This document shows, piece by piece, positions 10,687 to 55,713 of a stretch of 64,000 nucleotides of DNA. The position numbers and the translations under genes were made by a program. Within the stretch, counting starts at the first letter, position 1, and each line of letters begins with the position of its first letter. The stretch spans positions 1-64,000 of the forward strand of contig UWYS01000007.1 in NCBI GenBank assembly GCA_900291925.1, in the 5' to 3' direction. The stretch comes from Thecaphora thlaspeos. Its lineage: Eukaryota > Basidiomycota > Ustilaginomycetes > Urocystidales > Glomosporiaceae. The notes beneath the pieces were generated by a model. It ran no database searches. It was given only the letters and a program-made list of their open reading frames with translations, and was not told the DNA's origin.

Positions 10687-13600
10687 ATGATAGCCAGGCG
10701 CACCCGCCAGGTCCTCTCCCCCGTCCAGCAGCACCAGTCGCCCGAAGAGCAGGACTCGCCCCTCTTTCTCAACACCGCTCAGTTCCGTTGCGCTGGCTTC
10801 GCCGCATCGTCCTCATCCCTATCCTTCAAGCACTGCAACGAGGCCAGTCCTTCGTCGCTCTACCTCTCTAGCCTATCGTCGCACCCATACCAATCTCAGC
10901 GTGTCTCCTGCTTCGTCGAAGTCCCAGCAGGCACGATGGGAACAGCCAGCAACAGCGGCCATGGTGCGGGCACCAAGCGCAAGCGGGTCGGCGCCGGCGC
11001 CTCTACCACCATGTCTACCGATCTCCGCGGCAGACGGACAGCGACGGCACCGACAGCGGAGCGCAGTAGGAGAGGCCGCGTCGGGAAGGGAACCGGCACC
11101 GGCAATGGCGATGCCAGCAGCAGCGTGTCGACGGGTCTTCGCCGCAGGGGCTTCCCCCCCTCGACACCGCAAAAGGCACCCCTCTCCAACGCCAGCAACA
11201 ACTCGGACTGGTCCTCGCTCGCCTCCAACTCTCCCTCCAATTTGCGCACCCAGACTCTGCTCGAACACGACCGCCTCGATGCCCGCGACGTCCACGACCA
11301 GCTCGTCGAGAGCTGGATCAACGGAGGCGGCAGGGGCGGCAACGGATCGAATCAACTCTCGCTGCGCCAGAGCATGCGCGGCATGACGCTCGAGGACGGC
11401 CCGGCGTCTTCCACAGGTATGGCAAGCGGCAGCGGTGGCGGCGGCGGCGGCCGAGAGGGCAGCATTGGTAGGCGCAGAATCGGCGGACACCGTCACGGAC
11501 CGCATGACGCTCGCTCCACCACGGGTCACCGCAACATCGACGACCCTGCTGCAGTCAGCAGTCGCAGCCACAACTGCAACGACAGAGGCGTCGATGACGA
11601 AGACGAAGACGACGAGGCAGAGGACGAGCGCCTCCTGACGACGGCGCCCAACTGGCAGCTTTCCCGACTGCGGAAGGTCGACTTGATTCGCCTCAATCGA
11701 CTCGCTGGCGCCTGGGACGACAAAGACGATGACAGAGAGATCGATCCGGATCTCTACACCAAGCAGGAGCTCGTCAACAGCATCATTGTCGGTCGCTCGC
11801 GCCTTGACAAGGGCAAAGGCAAGGGCAAGCACACGGCAGCGGCAGCGGCCGAGGACCTCGATCTCGACGGCGGTCGCGCCGAGAAGAGCCACGGCCACGG
11901 ACCGGTCTCTGCATCGTTATCGTCGCTCCGAGCGACCCGCGGGTCGGCTGCTGCTGGCGGCGCTAGCGCTAGCGCTACCGGACAGCGCAGTCCTACCAGA
12001 CCGCTGCGAGACAGGGCAGCGAGATCGCGCTCCCGCTCTCGAACTCGCGGCTCAGTCCACCACGACGCCGTCCAGGGCGGAAAGAGAGGGGAATCTACTA
12101 GGAGAGGTTGTGCACGTCGGGCAGACGCCACCAGCGACTCCGAGGGCTCCAACGAGGGCGGAGGCGAAGAGACGGAAGCCGAGCCCGCTCGGGCAGCGGC
12201 CAACAGGCGGAGGACCACGATGGCCAGGAGGCCTCATGTCGGCGGCGGCGGCGGTACTCTTCGTCGCATGGACTCTTCGATGTTCGAGGAGGCGGAGCTG
12301 ATGCGGCACTCGTCCGCCACCGATGCTGATCAGGACGTCGACCACGACGGCGATGGCAGTTCTTGGCGGCGACGCCAGCGACCGGACTGTGCCGCACCTC
12401 GCCTCGGTCCTCACCGCCAGTCGCGGGCTGGACAGGCCGCCTCAATCCTCTCCGCCAGCCGCTCCAGCAGGCGCGGCCGTGATCGATCGATATTTGGAGG
12501 CTCGGACGCTGACGGCGGCGCCAACGACTCCTCCACCACCTCGCTCGCCTTCACCAGTTCCGGCGTCTCTCCGCTCGGGCCCCATTTGCTACGCAGGCGT
12601 GGCTCGAGGCGAAACCTTTTTGTCGCCTCATCGCCCGTCCGGGCGACCGGCTCGCGCATCCCCCTCGGCGGCGGCGGCAACGGAGGCATGACCGCCCGAC
12701 GCCGTCCGATGACGCGAGCCACGGCGGCGGCGCTGCAGGGGACGTTTGCCGGCGGTGGCGGTGGGGAGAGCTCCAGCAGCCGGACTTCGCGCGCGATGTG
12801 TCCATCTGGCCGCCGCACCACGAAGCATAGGGGCGTCGCCGTCGCCTTCCGCGAAGGGGCCGAGCTCTTTGGCGGCGACGATGCGCCAGCCGCCCGCGCC
12901 ACGGCCACGGCCACGGCCGCAGCTACAGCCACCACCGCTGCCAGCCGCTTAGGCCATCGCCGGACCCGCGATCCCAACACCATGGAAGAGGACTGGGAGG
13001 AGGAGGAGGAGGAAGAGGGGGAGGAAGAAAACGATCCGGCCACCCGCAGCAACGGCTCGCGGGATCATAGGGCAGCAGTCAGGGCGACGGAGGCCAAGGG
13101 GCCCGAGAGACGCTTGACGCGGGCCAAAGCGCGGCAAAACAGCTTGCATGAGCAATCTGCCGACGATGCTGACTGCGAGCTCGTGAGCAGCCAGCTCAGC
13201 GTCGCCGACGAGGAGTCGAATGAAGAAGGCAGCATGAATGTGGCCCGACGCCGAGGCGGGCAGCGCAAAGGCGGCCTGAACGGCCTCGAAGACATCGGTG
13301 ACGAGGAGGAGACACCCGGCAAGTCGGCCCGCAAGCCCCTGCGGGCTTTGCGAAGGGGATCGCAGAGCGGACAGCAACAGCAGCGCCGAGGAATCAAGGC
13401 GTCGAGTCACGTAGGCGTCAGCGGACATGGCGAAGACGAGACCGACACGACGACCGACCAAGCAGGGGAGGCGATCGGCGATGATGCCGAGGACGATTCT
13501 CCGAGCGACATCTCCTCGAGCGAAGAAGCGGAAACCCCGGTCAAGTTCCGCAAGCTGCGAAACGGCAAGCTCCGGATGCCGCCGTCGAAACGCGATGCCA

Positions 13601-15261
13601 TAGCCATTGACGACGACAACGGGGACGACGGCGACGACAAAGACGGCCCGCGTCAGCAGCTCAAAGAGGGTGGCGAGGAGGGAGGGGTCGATGTCGAGAT
13701 GGAGGCGGCCGATGTCGACGCCGACGTCGAAGCGGTGGCACGCGGGGATGTCGGGTCGGACGATGGCGGTCGGGGCATTGCAGTCGCCACAGCAGCCGGT
13801 GGGACCCGTCTATCGCCGGCGATCGAAGAGGCAATGTTTGAGCCGACAGCCAGTTCCCTCTCGCGGCTCCGGCGGGCGCAGCTCGTCGACCTGTGCGAGG
13901 CCCGCGCCCTACCGACGGACGAGGCCGACCGCAAGGCGGACCTGATCGACCGTCTGCTCCAGTGGTACTCGGTTCACGTCTCGCCGCCGGCCACCGCACG
14001 ACTGGGGCAGGACCATCGGGTGAATTCCAGCAACGACGACGAGCCCGATGCCGAGGCCGAGCAGTCCGACGCCGCCGGCTCCGACTGCAGCTCCGCCTCG
14101 ACGGCGAGGCAGGGGTCCGACTTCAACGCCAACGGCGACGGCGACGCGACCACACCGCGCACCGCAGAAAAGAAGAAGCGGGTCCCTGGCGGGGGCGGCC
14201 ATCGCCGGACGTACGCCGAGCGCGAGCCTACGTCGAGCGAGGTGCCGCTGCTGCTGCGCGGGCAGGCAGACAAGGTCGGGTCGGCGAGCAAGCTGCCAAC
14301 GCCGCCGCTGACGAGTCGCAACGACGAGGGGCATGCGGCGGAGCCGGGCGACGGCGTCGACGAGCTCAATGGGCTCGACCTTGAGAGCCTGGACCTCTTG
14401 GACAAGGAGATCCCGGCGTCGAAGCTGGAGAAGCTGGAAAAGATCGGCTCGGGCGGCTTCAAGGACGTCTACGTGGGGCGGTACCGCATTTCGAAGGCAC
14501 GCGTCAACCGCGTCGCCATCGCCGACATCCGCGACCAGCTGACGGAGATGGACATCAAGGAGCTGAGCCTGCTGCGCGACCTGAGGCACGAGAACATTGT
14601 TCGCTTCATCGGCGTGAGCATCCCGGACGACCCGAAGACGAGCGTGCCGTGCATGATTGTGAGCGAGCTGTGCGTCAATGGCGACCTGTTCGACTACATC
14701 CGCAACGTCGCGGCGCCCAACGACTACGAGGTGTTCCGCATCCTGCTCGAGACGGCGAGGGGGCTCGAGTACCTGCACACACGCACGCCGGCCATCATCC
14801 ATCGCGACTGCAAGTCGACGAACGTGCTCATCACGCGCAACCGGACGGCCAAGATCAACGACTTCGGCCTGGCCAAGGTGAAGAACACGCAGAGGTCGAT
14901 GATGCGTTCGCTGGTGGGGACGGTCAACTGGCAAGCAGTCGAACTGTGGGTGGCGAAGCCGCACTACAACGAAAAGGTGGACGTGTGGAGCGCAGCGATG
15001 ACGTTTTGGGAGACGTTACAGTGGCATCAGCCGGAAAAAAGGTATCCCTTTCAGGGCATGAATGAACATCAGATCTACCAGGACGTAGGTGGGCCGAAGA
15101 AGGTCAGACCGTATACGGGCAAGATCAGGAGACAGTTCGGAGCGGAGATCGTAGAACTCTTGGAGAGGATGTGGCATCATACTCCCAGGGAGAGACCGAG
15201 CATGACGCAGGTGTGCGAGGAGTTGGAGGCACTCGTAGCGATCAAGAAAGCAGAGGTGTAG
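10687..15261 (+). CDS. Large SAP-motif protein with C-terminal TKL-like kinase domain
   Basis: Intronless, 1524 residues from the first ATG; a second in-frame ATG at 10,936 (residue 84) has a strong context (A at -3, G at +4) and may be the true start. The N-terminal 1200 residues are low-complexity, with Arg/Lys-rich, Gly and acidic tracts, and hold two SAP-like helix pairs (about 325-368, and about 1056-1093 with LSRLRRAQLVDLCEA), suggesting chromatin or DNA association. The kinase domain begins at about 1247: glycine loop IGSGGF (1253-1258), HRDCKSTN (H1372, R1373, D1374), DFG (1392-1394) and GTVNW in the activation segment. The usual VAIK lysine is alanine here (VAIADI, A1279), while the alpha-C Glu seems kept. 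Substrate and pathway are unknown. Confidence 0.8.
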   Translation: MIARRTRQVLSPVQQHQSPEEQDSPLFLNTAQFRCAGFAASSSSLSFKHCNEASPSSLYLSSLSSHPYQSQRVSCFVEVPAGTMGTASNSGHGAGTKRKRVGAGASTTMSTDLRGRRTATAPTAERSRRGRVGKGTGTGNGDASSSVSTGLRRRGFPPSTPQKAPLSNASNNSDWSSLASNSPSNLRTQTLLEHDRLDARDVHDQLVESWINGGGRGGNGSNQLSLRQSMRGMTLEDGPASSTGMASGSGGGGGGREGSIGRRRIGGHRHGPHDARSTTGHRNIDDPAAVSSRSHNCNDRGVDDEDEDDEAEDERLLTTAPNWQLSRLRKVDLIRLNRLAGAWDDKDDDREIDPDLYTKQELVNSIIVGRSRLDKGKGKGKHTAAAAAEDLDLDGGRAEKSHGHGPVSASLSSLRATRGSAAAGGASASATGQRSPTRPLRDRAARSRSRSRTRGSVHHDAVQGGKRGESTRRGCARRADATSDSEGSNEGGGEETEAEPARAAANRRRTTMARRPHVGGGGGTLRRMDSSMFEEAELMRHSSATDADQDVDHDGDGSSWRRRQRPDCAAPRLGPHRQSRAGQAASILSASRSSRRGRDRSIFGGSDADGGANDSSTTSLAFTSSGVSPLGPHLLRRRGSRRNLFVASSPVRATGSRIPLGGGGNGGMTARRRPMTRATAAALQGTFAGGGGGESSSSRTSRAMCPSGRRTTKHRGVAVAFREGAELFGGDDAPAARATATATAAATATTAASRLGHRRTRDPNTMEEDWEEEEEEEGEEENDPATRSNGSRDHRAAVRATEAKGPERRLTRAKARQNSLHEQSADDADCELVSSQLSVADEESNEEGSMNVARRRGGQRKGGLNGLEDIGDEEETPGKSARKPLRALRRGSQSGQQQQRRGIKASSHVGVSGHGEDETDTTTDQAGEAIGDDAEDDSPSDISSSEEAETPVKFRKLRNGKLRMPPSKRDAIAIDDDNGDDGDDKDGPRQQLKEGGEEGGVDVEMEAADVDADVEAVARGDVGSDDGGRGIAVATAAGGTRLSPAIEEAMFEPTASSLSRLRRAQLVDLCEARALPTDEADRKADLIDRLLQWYSVHVSPPATARLGQDHRVNSSNDDEPDAEAEQSDAAGSDCSSASTARQGSDFNANGDGDATTPRTAEKKKRVPGGGGHRRTYAEREPTSSEVPLLLRGQADKVGSASKLPTPPLTSRNDEGHAAEPGDGVDELNGLDLESLDLLDKEIPASKLEKLEKIGSGGFKDVYVGRYRISKARVNRVAIADIRDQLTEMDIKELSLLRDLRHENIVRFIGVSIPDDPKTSVPCMIVSELCVNGDLFDYIRNVAAPNDYEVFRILLETARGLEYLHTRTPAIIHRDCKSTNVLITRNRTAKINDFGLAKVKNTQRSMMRSLVGTVNWQAVELWVAKPHYNEKVDVWSAAMTFWETLQWHQPEKRYPFQGMNEHQIYQDVGGPKKVRPYTGKIRRQFGAEIVELLERMWHHTPRERPSMTQVCEELEALVAIKKAEV

Positions 15262-40307: not shown

Positions 40308-42097
40308 TCAAGTGGCACCACTGAGGGAAACATCATCCATCTCACTTTCCTCTTCCTCTTCCTCTTGATGCTGTTGTTGCTCTACCTGTTGTTCCAATCT
40401 ACTCGTCACCGTCTGCTCCACCTCCTTCTCTTCTTCCCCTACTTCCTCCTCTTGCTCCTCGTCGCGATGATCCGTTCGGGAATGATGGATCTCCTCCCCC
40501 TCTTCATCGAATCCTATCAGCGTACCACGTTCTTCGTCCGGTGCAGTAACTTCAATCGAAGGATTAGGACTTCCCGTTCCGATTGTCGTTGATTCCACTC
40601 GATCAGCAGCAGAAGCACAAGGAGCAGCGCCAGAAGAGGAAAGGTCAAGTCCCGGTTCGTTCTCCATGTTCTCCATCCCAGAACCAGCAAGGTCCGGTGT
40701 CGTATCGATGGCTTCGTGCGTCGTCGTGTTCATCATGGAGAGTGGGATGGGTGGGAGGTCGTATGCCGAATCGGAATGGACGTGTGTCTCTCCTTCTCTT
40801 TCTTCCGCCTCGATGGTCGAGGTATTGCTGGTCAGCGTCAAAGGGTCGACGTGCGGAGGCGAAGGGGGGACGGCGCTTGTGTCCATATCTTGTGCTACTG
40901 TTGTCGCTGCTTCTTGTGCTTCTTCCATCGTCGTCGTCTTCGTCGTCGAAGGTGCTTCCGGCGCCGGCGCCGCCGCTGCTGCTGACGTTGTGGCGTCGTC
41001 GGTCGCCGGTGCTGGCGCCGCGCTGCTGCCTCGTAGTTTCGCGATGCTCTCCCTAAACGTAGCGGCATTCGGCGGGTCTTGGTCGAGGTAGTAGGGCGAG
41101 ATGTTGACCATCTTCTTCTGATCGTGACACGCTACGATCCAGTGCGGCTTGACCACAGGTATGCTGAGCTGCATCGCCTTGGCATAGCCGTTGCCTTGAC
41201 TCGTGCCGACGTTGGTGTCGCCCGGGTTGCGCGGATCGGTGCAGACGAAGTGGGTCGTATCGATCTGGATCCTATCCGACCACTTGGCCTGCATGTTCTT
41301 GAGTGCCTCCTTGGCGGCGGCCAGCACTTCGGGGTCGGAGATGTGGCCGAAGCAGACAGAGATGCCAGAGGTCTGGTGGATGGTGTGCGTGCGCGTCCGG
41401 ATGATGGGCGAGGAAAAGGTCCCCGCCGACGTCTTGAGGACGAGGTGGAAGGTGTAGTCGGCGTCTAGCTCTAGGCCGGAGAGTTTGGTAGAGGTGTTGT
41501 GCAGAGGGTTGGGGATGGGAGCGAGGCGTTGGCCGTTGCGGTAGATGTCGAGGGAGAGAAGAGAGGCGGTGGCCAGCGAGAGGCGGTCCCATTCCAGCGT
41601 GACCGAGGTCTGGGTGACGTTGCGTAGGCGCAGCGACGGAGCTGTGGCAGAGGGATGTTGACGGCAGGTGAGATGGCAAGGTGGAAGGGAGTCGGTGTCA
41701 GTTGGAAGCTCGAGACAACGACGACGGCAACGACTACGACGAAGCCTCGCGCCCCGTCGCATCGCCGGCTGCGAAGCTCACCTTTCGGCGCCTCAGTCCC
41801 AAAAGTAGAGAGAATATCGTCCTGGAGCTGCTCGAACTCGCTCTTCTGTTTCCTCTCTTCGTCCTGATTCCTCAGCACGCGAATGTTGACGACGCTGCCA
41901 GACGACACGCCGGGTGGGAGGAGGAGAGATGGGAACTCGATAAGCGACGCGCGTTCGCCGATGAGGATGGCCATACCGGCGTCGAGCTTGCCGACGGTGA
42001 AGGTGAAGCTGTCATCGTTGTTGGTCGACGAGGAAGAGGGACGCATCTCGGCGTGGACGTAGTTGGGCGCTACCTGTTGGGCGTAGTGGGTCGCCAT
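40308..42097 (-). CDS. CHS5: CHS5, exomer scaffold (FN3 + BRCT)
   Basis: Two exons: 42097-41782 and 41641-40308, giving 549 residues. The N-terminal segment FTVGKLDAGMAILIGERASLIEFPSLLLP is the Chs5 Arf-binding/dimerisation region. The intron falls just before the fibronectin-III domain (PSLRLRNVTQTSVTLEWDRL), followed by a BRCT domain (GISVCFGHISDPEVL ... THFVCTDPRNPG ... VVKPHWIVACHD). After about residue 310 the protein is acidic and rich in Glu, Ser and Thr. Exomer moves cargo such as chitin synthase III from the trans-Golgi to the plasma membrane, so this links to cell-wall building with KEX2 and GNA1 in the window. The start Met at 42,097 was chosen; the frame extends 8 codons upstream only from a GTG. 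Confidence 0.93.
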
Positions 42098-50955: not shown

Positions 50956-51846
50956 AGGCGGCTAGGAGAGGCGATACGTTGACGAGAATCAGATCGTCCT
51001 CGTGCGACTGTAACACCCTAGGCGGTTTTCCTTCTTTCAGTATCTCCTAACCTTTCCCTCTGCTGCTTCTCTCTCTCTCTCACACACACACACCTCTCTC
51101 TAATACACACGATACAAGGTACCATTGACAATCTAATCTGATTTTTACTCTCATCGACACACAAAGGCATTCTATACCATCCTCTTTTCTTCCACTGAGG
51201 CATCCGAAAGTCTCCAACCCCTTTCATCACCAAAAAGCATCCTTCGGAGGGGGGAAAAGCAATGTTCCTGTTCTCCGAAATCCGCCATGGCAACCAGGTA
51301 AAACGTACAACCTACCCCGGCCATTCCGCCGAGCAAGTTGGCTATGCGTTGCCACCGTGCTGGCGGGACGTTTTCGTTCTTCGTTACTCGACGGAAGAAT
51401 TTGGCCGATTGCGAAGAAGATGAAGGACGAGAGGAGGATGATGGTGGAGAGGATGGGTGGAGATGCGATTGAGGCGCTGTCCAGACGCTTGGTTCGTCGA
51501 TGGGCGAGGCGAGGTGCGGTGACGAGGAGGTCGTTTTCGGACAGGTGCTCCCGTCGATTTCTGCGTTGCGGCGCGCGATGGGCGTCGAGCGCTGTAGAAA
51601 GGCGGAGAGTGATACGATAAAGATAGCGACACCTCAGTTATCCGTCGACTCCATAGGCTATGCGCAGCGCAAGACTAGGTTTGCAGAAGGAAGGCAGGGT
51701 CGATGCGAGATCGAGGAGCTGTGTGCGGGCATGTGTCTACACCTCAAGCCCTCAAGCCCTCACGCCGTCCGCCGCGCACCTCTTTCAACTCATCCCTCGA
51801 TCCCGGACCGACCCCTCACCTCGTTCGCCCCAAGTTGCCTGCGCCG
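50956..51846. other. Mostly gene-free stretch with CT/CA microsatellite
   Basis: 891 bp between the MFS remnant and the bL9-BolA stop. A (CT)n(CA)n microsatellite lies at about 51,069-51,092. A weak minus-strand reading frame is listed separately. Confidence 0.4.
51172..51324 (-). CDS. Possible short ORF, 50 residues, unidentified
   Basis: From the only suitable ATG at 51,324 the frame gives MAGVGCTFYLVAMADFGEQE and continues to a stop at 51,172. It stays open upstream without ATG to about 51,637 (..FFRRVTKNENVPPARWQRIANLLGG), so it could be the last exon of a spliced gene. The first 17 residues could form a membrane helix. No family was recognised and no splice junction could be fixed; it may be chance. 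Confidence 0.22.
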   Translation of the reverse strand: MAGVGCTFYLVAMADFGEQEHCFSPLRRMLFGDERGWRLSDASVEEKRMV

Positions 51847-52218
51847 CTAGTTGCTGCTCACATTGGCTCTCTCTACCTCCTTCCGTGTCTTGGTCCTGAG
51901 GCTGAGCGCGTGTAGGCCCCTGTCGAACTCGTCCGACAGGAGAGCATTGACGGCGCGATGCCTCTTGATCTGCGTCATCCCCTCGAACGCATCACTGATA
52001 ACCTCGATGTAGAAGTGCGTCTCGCCGTTGCCACCACCCTGCGCGGCCATGGCGGCGTGGTGTGCGTGCTTGCTCGAGTCGTTTCGGATCGTGACTTCGG
52101 CGGGGGCAAAGGCGCTTTCAATCTTGGAGCGCATCGAGGTCTCCATGCCCGTAGGCTGGGCGGCACGGCGCGAGGCCGACGTGGAAAAGGAGCGCGTGCC
52201 GGTAGGTGCAGCGGACAT
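51847..52218 (-). CDS. BolA-like protein, possible separate product from internal ATG
   Basis: 123 residues if translation starts at 52,218. It begins with its own mitochondrial-type presequence (Arg/Ser-rich, no acidic residues for about 25 positions), then the BolA fold with KHAHHAAM, the conserved IEVISDAFEGM and the IKRHRAVNALL helix containing the cluster-ligand His region. It is the C-terminal part of the fused frame; there is no separate stop or obvious promoter except exon 3 and its preceding intron. Confidence 0.6.
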   Translation of the reverse strand: MSAAPTGTRSFSTSASRRAAQPTGMETSMRSKIESAFAPAEVTIRNDSSKHAHHAAMAAQGGGNGETHFYIEVISDAFEGMTQIKRHRAVNALLSDEFDRGLHALSLRTKTRKEVERANVSSN

Positions 52219-53236
52219 GGTCGCAGTGCCGGTAATGCTGGCGGTGCTAGAGGAAGCACTGGGTGTGGGCCGAGAAGGGGTCGCCGAAAGGCTGGGAAGG
52301 ACGATGATGGGAACGTCGACGACGGCCTCGGTCGCGTGGAGGCGTGTTCGCACTGCCAAGAGAGGCGACCAGCGTGAAGAAAGAAATGGTCAGAGGCGTC
52401 CTTCAACGGCACCAACGATAGAGGACCCGATCCGGCGGCGTCGGTGGAAACTGGACACTCACAACTGTACCTTCCGGTCTTTTTGATCCTGCCGCTCTTG
52501 TCTAGCGAGTCGGGTTCCTTGTTGTCCTTTGCGGGGACGACTGTGAACTCGCACGCCGTCGCAATCTGCTGTGCGGTGAGCCTGTTGAGGGGTGCGGCTG
52601 CTCCTGGCTGGGCGAAGCTGGTCTCAAGGTCGAATACGCCGTGGGTGTCTCGGATGTGGTTGACAACCTCGTTGGTCGAAATGCTTCCCTGGATCGTGAG
52701 CGGAGAGTCGGAGAGCTGTCCGGCAGCAGCGGCGGCGGCGGTCGAGGAGGGTGCGACGGTGGTGGAGCGCGAGTAGGTGACGGTGGGTACGCTCTCTAGC
52801 TTGCGGCGGAGCGAGAGGAGCTGGACGGGACCGAGTTGCTTTTGCAGCTGTTCGCGGACCTTGTGCTTGTCGAGGCGCTGCTGTGCCTGTTCTAGCTGCT
52901 GTTGGACGAGGCGAGAGGCGGTCTCCTCGCGGCTCCGTGTGGAAGGTGTGGGGAGGGGCTGGTAGATGGCTTGCTTGGAAGGAAGCAGCTGGTTGCGCAT
53001 ACGACCCGGCTGGACCAGGCAGACTTGACCGGCCTTGCCGAGGCCAGGAGTATCGGCGATGAGCTGAACACGGACGAGTCGGCGTTGCGATAGTGTTGTG
53101 GCCTGAGGTGGGTGAGGGGGACGGTGGTAGGGAAGATGGGGGTCAGCACAGGTCGTCAGGGCTTGGAGCCATCGGTCTGAGAGGAGAGCGTGCTGCTCAC
53201 CGATTGTGCGATGGATCGGATTGCGGTCGGCCTCAT
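51847..53236 (-). CDS. Mitochondrial ribosomal protein bL9 fused in frame to a BolA protein
   Basis: Three exons: 53236-53201 (36 nt), 53102-52463 and 52352-51847, giving 393 residues without any stop between the two parts. bL9 part: LSQRRLVRVQLIADTPGLGKAGQV and the linker helix with QQLEQAQQRLDKHK, then the C-domain GSISTNEVVNHIRDTHGVF. Exon 3 supplies its last strand, RTRLHATEAVVDVPIIVLP. A Ser/Thr/Pro-rich linker of about 20 residues follows, then residue 271, an ATG in good context (ACC before it) that opens a second presequence-like stretch, TRSFSTSASRRAAQ. The BolA domain ends the protein: HFYIEVISDAFEGMTQIKRH and ALLSDEF. BolA1/BolA3-type proteins help iron-sulfur cluster delivery in mitochondria. 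Either one polyprotein is made and cleaved, or BolA is made from the internal start. Confidence 0.82.
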
Positions 53237-53875
53237 TTCGAGGGCAAGCGTACAGATCGGCAGAAGTGAGACGCCGGAGGAGAGGGGAAGCGAGTTGGGG
53301 ATGATGGTGTCGGTCGTGAGCGAGCCGAGAGGTGGTAGGCGGCGAGCTCGACTCGGGAGTTCGTGATGCGCCGCCAGAAGAAGCGGGGAGCGCCGCGCCC
53401 CACCTCGCCCCGCCGGCCGCCCAGCGAAAACTTTGTTGCGCCTCGCCCCCTCGACCCGCGCGACAAGAGAAAGACGGTGCAAGCTGCCAAATGCTCGGGA
53501 GACGGCGGAGAGAGCCCCTGCCAGGGTCCTTTTTCGCATTTGGCGTCTCGCCTCCGGGCAGAAGAGGAAGAAAAGAAAGAAAGAAAAAGGCCCGAAGTGG
53601 TGGGCGTGATCGCATCTCGACGAGAAGAACGGTGGGCCGGCAATACCTAGACTGCCTCTTGCTTTGCCTTGACGTAAGCCTCCGGCGCTAGCGCCGGAGG
53701 CCTTTCGAAGCCTCGAGATACATTCACACGATCCTTGCTTGTGAAGCTCACACCTTGCCACGCTGCTCTACAGACGCACACCCTCCCTCTCTCGCTCTCT
53801 TGGGCCACCCTTCCGCTCCTTTCTCTCCCCGCCCATCCGGCGACTCGATTCTGATACACATACGGCAAACACGTC
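53237..53875. promoter_or_regulatory. Divergent promoter region bL9-BolA / COQ1
   Basis: 639 bp between divergent start codons. It contains a 24-bp perfect palindrome at 53678-53701 (listed separately), a GAAAGAAAGAAA run near 53,572 and a pyrimidine-rich leader before COQ1. No gene was recognised. Confidence 0.45.
53678..53701. promoter_or_regulatory. 24-bp perfect palindrome
   Basis: Left half GCCTCCGGCGCT, with its exact inverse complement directly following and no spacer. It lies about 175 bp upstream of the COQ1 start in a promoter shared with bL9-BolA. It could bind a dimeric regulator or extrude a cruciform; both are inference. Confidence 0.45.
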
Positions 53876-55713
53876 ATGTCATCCAGGCTCCCTCCCTCGG
53901 TAGCCAGTCTGGCCCGTTCCACAGCCACAAGACGGATCGCCGTTACCTCGAAGTGCCCTGGCGCAACAGTCTGCGCCACCAGCACCAGTGGCGTAAATCG
54001 GCGCTGCCGCCAGCAGTCGACATGGGCTGCCGTCGTCGACCAGGCAAAGACGCTCGTCCAGGACCAGATCCGACACATGCCCTCTAGCTCGCCCTCGTCT
54101 CCGTCGTCATCAGTATCACCGCCGGACGCCTCGGGCTCCTCGTCGTTCTTCGGGACGACGTCACCCTCTACATCGTCTGCCCAGATCATCACCGACCCCC
54201 TATCGCTCGTGTCTTCCGAGCTCTCGTCGCTCCGCTCCAACGTCTCTTCGCTCCTCGGCTCCGGCCATCCCTCGCTCGACACAATAGCAAAGTACTACTT
54301 CCAGGCAGATGGCAAGCACGTCCGCCCTCTCATTGTCCTCCTGATGAGCAAGGCTACGAACGGCATCTCGCCCCTCTGGCCCGAGCTCGTCGACCACGCC
54401 CTACGCACCGAGCGGCGCACCGACGATGCGGGCAAGGCAATCGAGCGTGACATGGGCATCAACGAGCCTCTCAGCCCAGAGGCCGTGCTCAACGACTTTA
54501 ACCCGCACATGGAAGCCATTGAGGGGTCGCTGGGGCTTGGCGGCTCGTCCGGTGTCTCGCCGAGCGATCTCAGCGGGCCGACGGCGACAACGACCACTGC
54601 GGCGGCCGACTTTAGCGGCATCCTTCCGACGCAGCGGCGGCTGGCCGAAATCACCGAGATGATTCACGTCGCCTCGCTGCTGCACGACGATGTGATTGAC
54701 GCCTCCACGCTCCGCCGCGGCGCGCCCTCGGCCCCCTCGGCGTTTGGCAATAAGCTCAGCATCCTCGGCGGCGACTTCCTCCTGGGGCGCGCATCGGTGG
54801 CGCTGGCCCGGCTGCGCGACAACGAGGTGGTCGAGCTGCTGGCCACCGTCATCGCCAACCTGGTCGAGGGCGAGGTGATGCAGCTCAAGAGCCAGGCGGC
54901 CAGCGACGGCCAGCAGGCGCAGGCAAAGAGTGGCCACGCCGCCTTCTGGGAGTCCGAGGGCCTCTCGGCGCACAACCAGGGCATTGAGAGCGGCAGGGCC
55001 GTCGGACCGTCCGAGATGCCGGAGCTGGGACCGACGCCGGCCCACTTTAGCCTCTACCTGCAGAAGACCTACCTCAAGACGGCCGCCCTGATCGGCAAGT
55101 CGACGCGCGCTTCCACCATTCTTGGTGGCTGCGGCGCAGAGGCGATCGGCCGCGCCGGCCTGTCGGGCGACGTCGCAGAGAGAATGCGCCAGGTCCGCGA
55201 CGCCGCCTACGGCTACGGGCGCAACCTCGGCATTGCTTTCCAGCTGGTAGACGACCTCCTCGACTTCGAGGCGACGTCGGCCGCGTTTGGCAAGCCGTCG
55301 GGAGGCGCGGACTTGAGGCTCGGGCTAGCGACAGCGCCTGTCCTCTATACGTGGCAGGAGACGCCCAACGAGGGGATTGCAGAGATGGTGGCGAGACGGT
55401 TCGAAGGTCCCGGCGACGTAGAAAAGGTGAGTAGGCGGTCGAAGGCAAGAGGCGTAGCCGCACAGACCCCGAGTAGGGGGGTCCGTCCGTTTCTTTGTTC
55501 GCTGACCCAGTCCTGTCGTCGCTCCCTGCCGTCGTTGTTACCCGCGCACAGATGCTCCACCTGGTCTCGAAATCGCGCGGTCTCGAACGGACCGCTTCGC
55601 TGGCAAAGGACCACGCTCGACGGGCAAGGGAAGCCCTCGACGTCTTACCCGACAGTGACGCCAAGCAGGCCCTGCTAAAGCTCAACGAACAGGTCGTCAA
55701 GCGTGTCCGGTAG
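53876..55713 (+). CDS. COQ1: COQ1, mitochondrial polyprenyl diphosphate synthase
   Basis: Two exons: 53876-55426 and 55552-55713, giving 570 residues, longer than the usual 430-470. It makes the isoprenoid tail of ubiquinone. The N-terminus has a presequence (SLARSTATRRIAV) and a Ser/Pro-rich stretch. The catalytic core carries ADGKHVRPL, the first Asp-rich motif D271-D272-V-I-D275 in LLHDDVIDAS followed by RRGAPS, and the second, D459-D460-L-L-D463 in QLVDDLLDFE. The extra length comes from the N-terminal linker and a low-complexity insertion at about 185-255 and another at about 345-385. Exon 2 encodes the final helices. Chain length of the product cannot be read from the sequence. Confidence 0.95.

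Follow-up and report, generated by a model that had tools for sequence, protein, structure and literature searches.

A bL9m-BOLA1-type fusion frame in smut fungi, probably a tandem mitochondrial precursor

Nuclear genes that place two mitochondrial proteins in one frame form a known class. In Schizosaccharomyces pombe, Rsm22-Cox11 joins a mitoribosome-related protein to a mitochondrial metal-cofactor assembly factor in a single nuclear frame, and the chain is reported to be cut after import (PMC12375894). In Saccharomyces cerevisiae, the mitochondrial processing peptidase (MPP) is described as removing the presequence of Arg5,6 and also cutting within its chain, giving two matrix proteins; the same account gives the two-step MPP/ICP55 motif as RX(F/Y/I/L)↓(S/A)(S/T) (PMC8847149). 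A designed polyprotein cut by MPP is reported to use sites such as RGGGRRAFHT (PMC10450427). BolA domains are also found in fusions, since in the SufE-BolA proteins of plants the BolA part lies C-terminal to an organelle protein (P0025; 4pui). As for function, yeast Bol1 and Bol3 are reported to help insert [4Fe-4S] clusters into some mitochondrial proteins (Uzarska and others, PMC5014550). Here, we describe a gene of Thecaphora thlaspeos that joins the mitochondrial ribosomal protein bL9m to a BolA domain. It lies in the window, by which we mean the whole 64-kb stretch of DNA that was analysed, and has the following features:

53201 to 53236, minus strand: exon 1, with the start codon and the opening half of the putative bL9 presequence (MRPTAIRSIAQS); the MR-start is conserved in the relatives possessing that end
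52463 to 53102, minus strand: exon 2, with the bL9 N-domain, the long helix and most of the C-domain (from the frame, Pfam and the secondary structure of the homologue P0002)
51847 to 52352, minus strand: exon 3, with the rest of the bL9 C-domain, the linker, the BolA domain and the stop (from the frame and Pfam)
52216 to 52218, minus strand: ATG of Met271, proposed in a preliminary description as an internal BolA start
52183 to 52194, minus strand: RSFS, an MPP/Icp55-type motif at residues 279-282
51877 to 52122, minus strand: BolA domain of the BOLA1/UVI31 type, residues 303-384 (Pfam, E 2.2e-28)

Splicing 53236-53201, 53102-52463 and 52352-51847 on the minus strand gives 1,182 nt encoding 393 residues (calculated mass 42.3 kDa) with no internal stop. 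This single frame comprises a complete bL9m, a linker of low conservation and a BOLA1-type BolA domain. The coordinates and uninterrupted frame of the preliminary description were correct; the MPP-type motif, the conservation across smuts and the third module (see below) are additions to it. Introns 1 and 2 measure 98 and 110 nt, and both have a GTGAG donor and a CTGAC branch-like site. The preliminary description would have fallen if an intron closed bL9 before 52,218 or if a sequencing error hid a stop. A donor scan of 52472-51847 found only two GTRAG donors, at 52462 (intron 2) and at 51861 (the end of BolA), with none between them; thus no intron with a GTRAG donor terminates bL9 ahead of BolA. 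The sequencing error is ruled out because the same fusion occurs in relatives that are 49-69% identical to the T. thlaspeos protein. GC3 is 0.74 in the bL9 part, 0.69 in the linker and 0.81 in BolA. A scan for bacterial promoters and terminators, of a type unsuited to a fungus, found nothing. An unspliced frame of 546 codons (51975-53615, minus strand) also crosses both bL9 introns; after intron 2 it is off the BolA frame, so retaining the introns would lengthen bL9 by an unrelated tail.

Pfam places Ribosomal_L9_N (PF01281) at residues 23-59 (E 5.6e-10), and the N-terminal 26 residues, described by composition and hydrophobic moment, contain Arg and no acidic residue and have a moment of 0.62. 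The structure prediction for P0002 (22 rows, mean pLDDT 66, pTM 0.36) contains a helix at residues 65-101 and a C-domain whose strands finish at residue 243, followed by a stretch with pLDDT <50 (residues 249-280) and then the BolA fold. With Foldseek, the bL9 part matches bacterial and mammalian mitochondrial ribosome chains over about 220 columns at an rmsd of 15-24 Å, a high value, as two domains linked by a flexible joint would be expected to give. Pfam, the model and Foldseek agree on the bL9 architecture of L9 N-domain, long helix and C-domain, and the frame, Pfam, the alignment and the model together place two separately folding mitochondrial proteins within one frame.

The nearest solved structures to the fused BolA are UVI31+ and BOLA1 chains, with UVI31+ and plant, mouse and human BOLA1 outranking most BolA2 and BolA3 entries, and the BolA His residues at 321, 323, 324, 338, 357 and 373 are invariant in an alignment of 23 sequences. 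Ranked by these best solved relatives and by the His pattern, the module is classed as BOLA1 type, not BOLA2 or BOLA3. A search of the 32 contigs of its own genome found one bL9 locus and no second. A six-frame search at E up to 10, in which exons may be missed, returned three BolA loci (the fused gene and one locus each on contigs C15 and C5), none of the other two being a second BOLA1-type locus. The C15 locus (L002, G000:C15, 647335-647520) encodes an Arg-rich presequence-like start (MLSSLTAPLRFARRLSTF) and the C5 locus (L004, G000:C5, around 1082152-1082226) is a gene in very small exons that falls under the Pfam cut-off in the six-frame search; reading their motifs by eye, we take them to be Bol3-like and Bol2, respectively. 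When yeast Bol2 was used as the query, the fused locus was the sole match in this genome (E 7e-4) and the C5 locus was missed, so claims of absence from such searches are weak.

The preliminary description had suggested looking for smut bL9 frames that lack a stop before BolA, and these are abundant. In a protein database search with the fused protein, 22 of 25 matches carry both modules in one frame; here, as in the searches with the third module (see below) and with a bL9 profile, the candidates scored were those of 0.55-1.75 times the query length sharing most words. The closest match, from T. frezii, has 68% identity over 99%, and the 12 carriers with organism names include Thecaphora, Sporisorium, Ustilago, Kalmanozyma, Testicularia, Moesziomyces, Pseudozyma hubeiensis, Melanopsichium and Violaceomyces. 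Three genera were looked up, and they place the fusion in three orders, the Urocystidales, Violaceomycetales and Ustilaginales. Seven of the 22 records (P0015-P0021) begin inside the L9 N-domain or beyond it, which is why Pfam shows BolA alone for them. The alignment of 23 sequences comprises T. thlaspeos and these 22 relatives, and omits P0023 (BolA only), P0024 (broken frame) and the plant-type SufE-BolA protein P0025. A search with the bL9 profile alone gave 16 matches, 12 of them fusions already found; none was a clear unfused smut bL9 halting before BolA, and none such carried a named species. Among the matches, P0037 and P0038 are distantly related bL9 proteins that lack BolA; P0036, with a smut-like RIKKTGEY motif, continues into an apparent intron and was counted as neither fused nor unfused. 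P0035, a 273-residue record outside the 23, reads R-G-Y-G at the motif and extends to where BolA begins, beyond which it diverges and loses the BolA frame. Judged by these sequence comparisons, the bL9-BolA fusion is real and old within the Ustilaginomycetes. Database records label the protein either L9-domain or BolA protein, which means that the fusion has been deposited but apparently not described.

The linker is predicted to be disordered in the P0002 model, and across the 23 sequences it is poorly conserved and variable in length. Between P245 and E296 a single column is invariant, R279, which sits in R-x-[F/Y]-[S/A/T] in every sequence. The slightly wider pattern R-x-[FYL]-[SAT] occurs once per linker in 23/23, where shuffled linkers are expected to give 0.93 of 23; the sequences are related, hence we attach no p-value. 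Up to the motif, 21 of the 23 linkers contain no Asp or Glu. Thus, a conserved internal motif of the MPP type lies between bL9 and BolA, and it fits the MPP-then-Icp55 rule as given in PMC8847149.

From the single frame, the conservation of the fusion and the invariant motif, we infer import, cleavage and a function for both products, and consider it probable that the protein is a mitochondrial tandem precursor whose linker is cut by MPP and then by Icp55. In this model, the putative bL9 presequence would carry the whole nuclear-encoded chain into the matrix, MPP would cut the linker at R279-S280↓F281, and Icp55 would then take off F281. The first product would be bL9m, set free with a short tail and measuring about 30 kDa until its own presequence is removed, for the large mitoribosomal subunit, and the second a BOLA1-type protein of 12.2 kDa starting at S282 and helping Fe-S cluster delivery, so that one mRNA would give two proteins at a 1:1 ratio. 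Of the three options raised in the preliminary description, the polyprotein cut by MPP is thus the best supported, having gained a motif present in 23/23 linkers, with cleavage itself still a prediction. Some observations fit this model less well. The hydrophobic moment of the linker is 0.54 in T. thlaspeos but weak (0.25-0.42) in the five relatives checked, so their linkers resemble a cut site more than a full second presequence. In addition, the motif could be left over from a presequence that BolA carried when it was still a separate protein, and a Met before it is kept in 21/23, as an internal start would need.

That Met is the basis of an alternative we regard as unlikely, in which BolA would come mainly from the internal ATG of Met271, by leaky scanning or from an internal transcript, and the long frame would give bL9 with a C-terminal passenger; the short BolA form might then remain partly outside mitochondria. 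The ATG at 52218 has an A at -3, and up to codon 271 the spliced frame contains three ATGs (53236, 53000 and 52218), so that two others precede it and none is out of frame. We rejected this lack of out-of-frame ATGs as evidence for leaky scanning, as synonymous shuffles give none in 37% of cases for the whole CDS and in 58% for codons 1-270. Moreover, P0018 and P0022 have no Met before the motif at all, and in 19 of the 21 sequences that do, the nearest one lies just 5-9 residues ahead of the motif Arg, which is short for a presequence. An internal start would not call for an open frame from bL9 through the linker, yet all aligned relatives keep one. The internal start is therefore weakened as the main source of BolA, and it could operate in addition to the long frame.

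Ranked next, and also improbable, is a stable uncut fusion, in which bL9m would bear BolA on the mitoribosome and couple cluster supply to translation. Both parts keep complete folds, yeast Rsm22 is reported to require an Fe/S cluster (PMC12375894), and GLRX5 and BOLA3 are named as cluster delivery factors for the mitoribosome in human cells (PMC11452305). However, the human link concerns BOLA3, not BOLA1, and the cluster motif of bS18m is reported to be absent in fungi (PMC11791143). The linker also speaks against an uncut protein, being disordered in the model, poorly conserved and variable in length, with a protease-type Arg as its sole invariant residue. This second option of the preliminary description survives, at low probability. 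Very improbable is alternative RNA processing, with an exon or poly(A) site ending bL9 and a separate 5' exon for BolA: alternative ends are common in fungal genes, but no GTRAG donor lies from intron 2 to the BolA end and the linker is open and in frame in 23/23 despite its varying length.

Downstream of BolA, the locus may extend into a third module, with two candidate features:

51592 to 51861, minus strand: candidate intron 3 of 270 nt, with donor AAT/GTGAGC within the last BolA codons and acceptor CTTTCTACAG/CGC, phase 0
51172 to 51591, minus strand: candidate exon 4, the third module, with a conserved KFFRRVT motif and a hydrophobic helix

The frame of the third module is open from 51633 and its first ATG is at 51324, so none precedes the helix, and the donor at 51861 and the acceptor at 51591 are both in phase 0. 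Nine of the 22 relatives are annotated as, or can be read, continuing past BolA into the KFFRRVT motif and a hydrophobic stretch; the other 13 are short, and several of these are unspliced or automatic records. All 14 sequences that end after BolA, T. thlaspeos included, have Val-Ser at one tail position, as a GTNAGN donor would encode. A protein search with the third module gave nine matches, five of which include upstream sequence, and in all five a Gln, as from CAG, precedes V-x-D-P. Two close pairs comprise both forms: SNN-VSI at the end of P0009 corresponds to SNN-ADD in P0013, and NN-VSL at the end of P0011 to NN-IGD in P0012. P0016 is joined across intron 3, whereas other records of its source (lgn), such as P0009 and P0011, keep intron 1, so P0016 may derive from cDNA. 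On the other hand, candidate intron 3 contains no CTRAY branch-like site, unlike introns 1 and 2, and the GC3 of candidate exon 4 is 0.59 (0.55 in its conserved part), below that of bL9, linker and BolA; composition thus gives the exon no support, and protein conservation is what supports it. The third module has no Pfam family in any of the three versions searched, up to E 10, and a PDB search with it gave chance matches alone (E 1.3 and 1.4).

In the P0002 model, residues 486-508 form a helix with pLDDT of 70-86 by block and K/R on its N-side, which suggests an inner-membrane span with BolA on the matrix side. There may thus be a soluble BolA and a membrane-anchored one. It is tempting to speculate, if only tentatively, that intron 3 works as a splicing switch: kept, it would leave bL9m and soluble BOLA1; spliced, it would join BOLA1 to a single-helix protein and anchor it in the inner membrane. 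In that case, a single gene would govern where the Fe-S delivery factor acts as well as how much of it is made relative to a mitoribosome protein. A separate first exon for the third module is also possible, as an ATG at 51732 opens a 24-codon frame in register with it, and P0034 (172 residues), which has Met residues upstream of the module, may be a free-standing third-module protein.

Other genes in the window include a polyprenyl synthetase gene (53876-55678, plus strand; PF00348, E 2.1e-52), presumably COQ1, the ubiquinone side-chain enzyme. It is oriented away from the fused gene, the two starts being 640 bp apart, and a common promoter region is possible. At 40308-41762 (minus strand) lies a gene for a protein with fibronectin type III and BRCT domains (PF16893, PF00533), an arrangement that we take to be the Chs5 layout, and at 10687-15261 (plus strand) there is an open frame of 1,524 codons with a protein kinase domain at its C-terminus.

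If the predicted cleavage occurs, the smuts would have a natural, class-wide mitochondrial polyprotein joining the mitoribosome and Fe-S delivery, a link under active study, and their sequences would be a ready test of what an internal MPP site requires. The third module would add possible splicing control over where the BolA protein acts. The cluster requirement of yeast Rsm22 and the role named for human GLRX5 and BOLA3 make a functional tie of BolA to the mitoribosome plausible, with the reservations on BOLA3 and bS18m given above. The gain may also lie wholly in providing two unrelated matrix proteins in equal amounts, and a neutral fusion is another possibility.

The preliminary description knew of no standard fusion of this kind, and our literature search agrees: judging by titles and abstract openings, with little cover of subscription journals, we found no report of a bL9m-BOLA1 pair. 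Tandem mitochondrial precursors are nevertheless an established class, and the smut protein is a new pair within it. Taken separately, its parts are familiar. The bL9 part resembles bL9 and bL9m (yeast Mrpl50) in its Pfam N-domain and overall two-domain architecture; unlike the smut frame, the clearer non-smut bL9 matches P0037 and P0038 stop without BolA. Similarly, yeast Bol1 and human BOLA1 are the best-matching type for the fused BolA module; they are encoded by a separate gene with its own presequence, whereas in smuts the module is the C-terminal part of the bL9 frame. SufE-BolA of plants pairs BolA with a partner that is an Fe/S factor too instead of a ribosomal protein, and in Arg5,6 the partners are two arginine-pathway enzymes, with no ribosomal or Fe/S factor. 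The designed MPP site RGGGRRAFHT, as given in PMC10450427, resembles the VRAFSTS found naturally in T. frezii. Rsm22-Cox11, as described in PMC12375894, differs in its partners, which in smuts are bL9m and BOLA1, and in that its cleavage has been demonstrated while that of the smut protein is predicted from its linker; the smut precursor has, besides, a possible third module.
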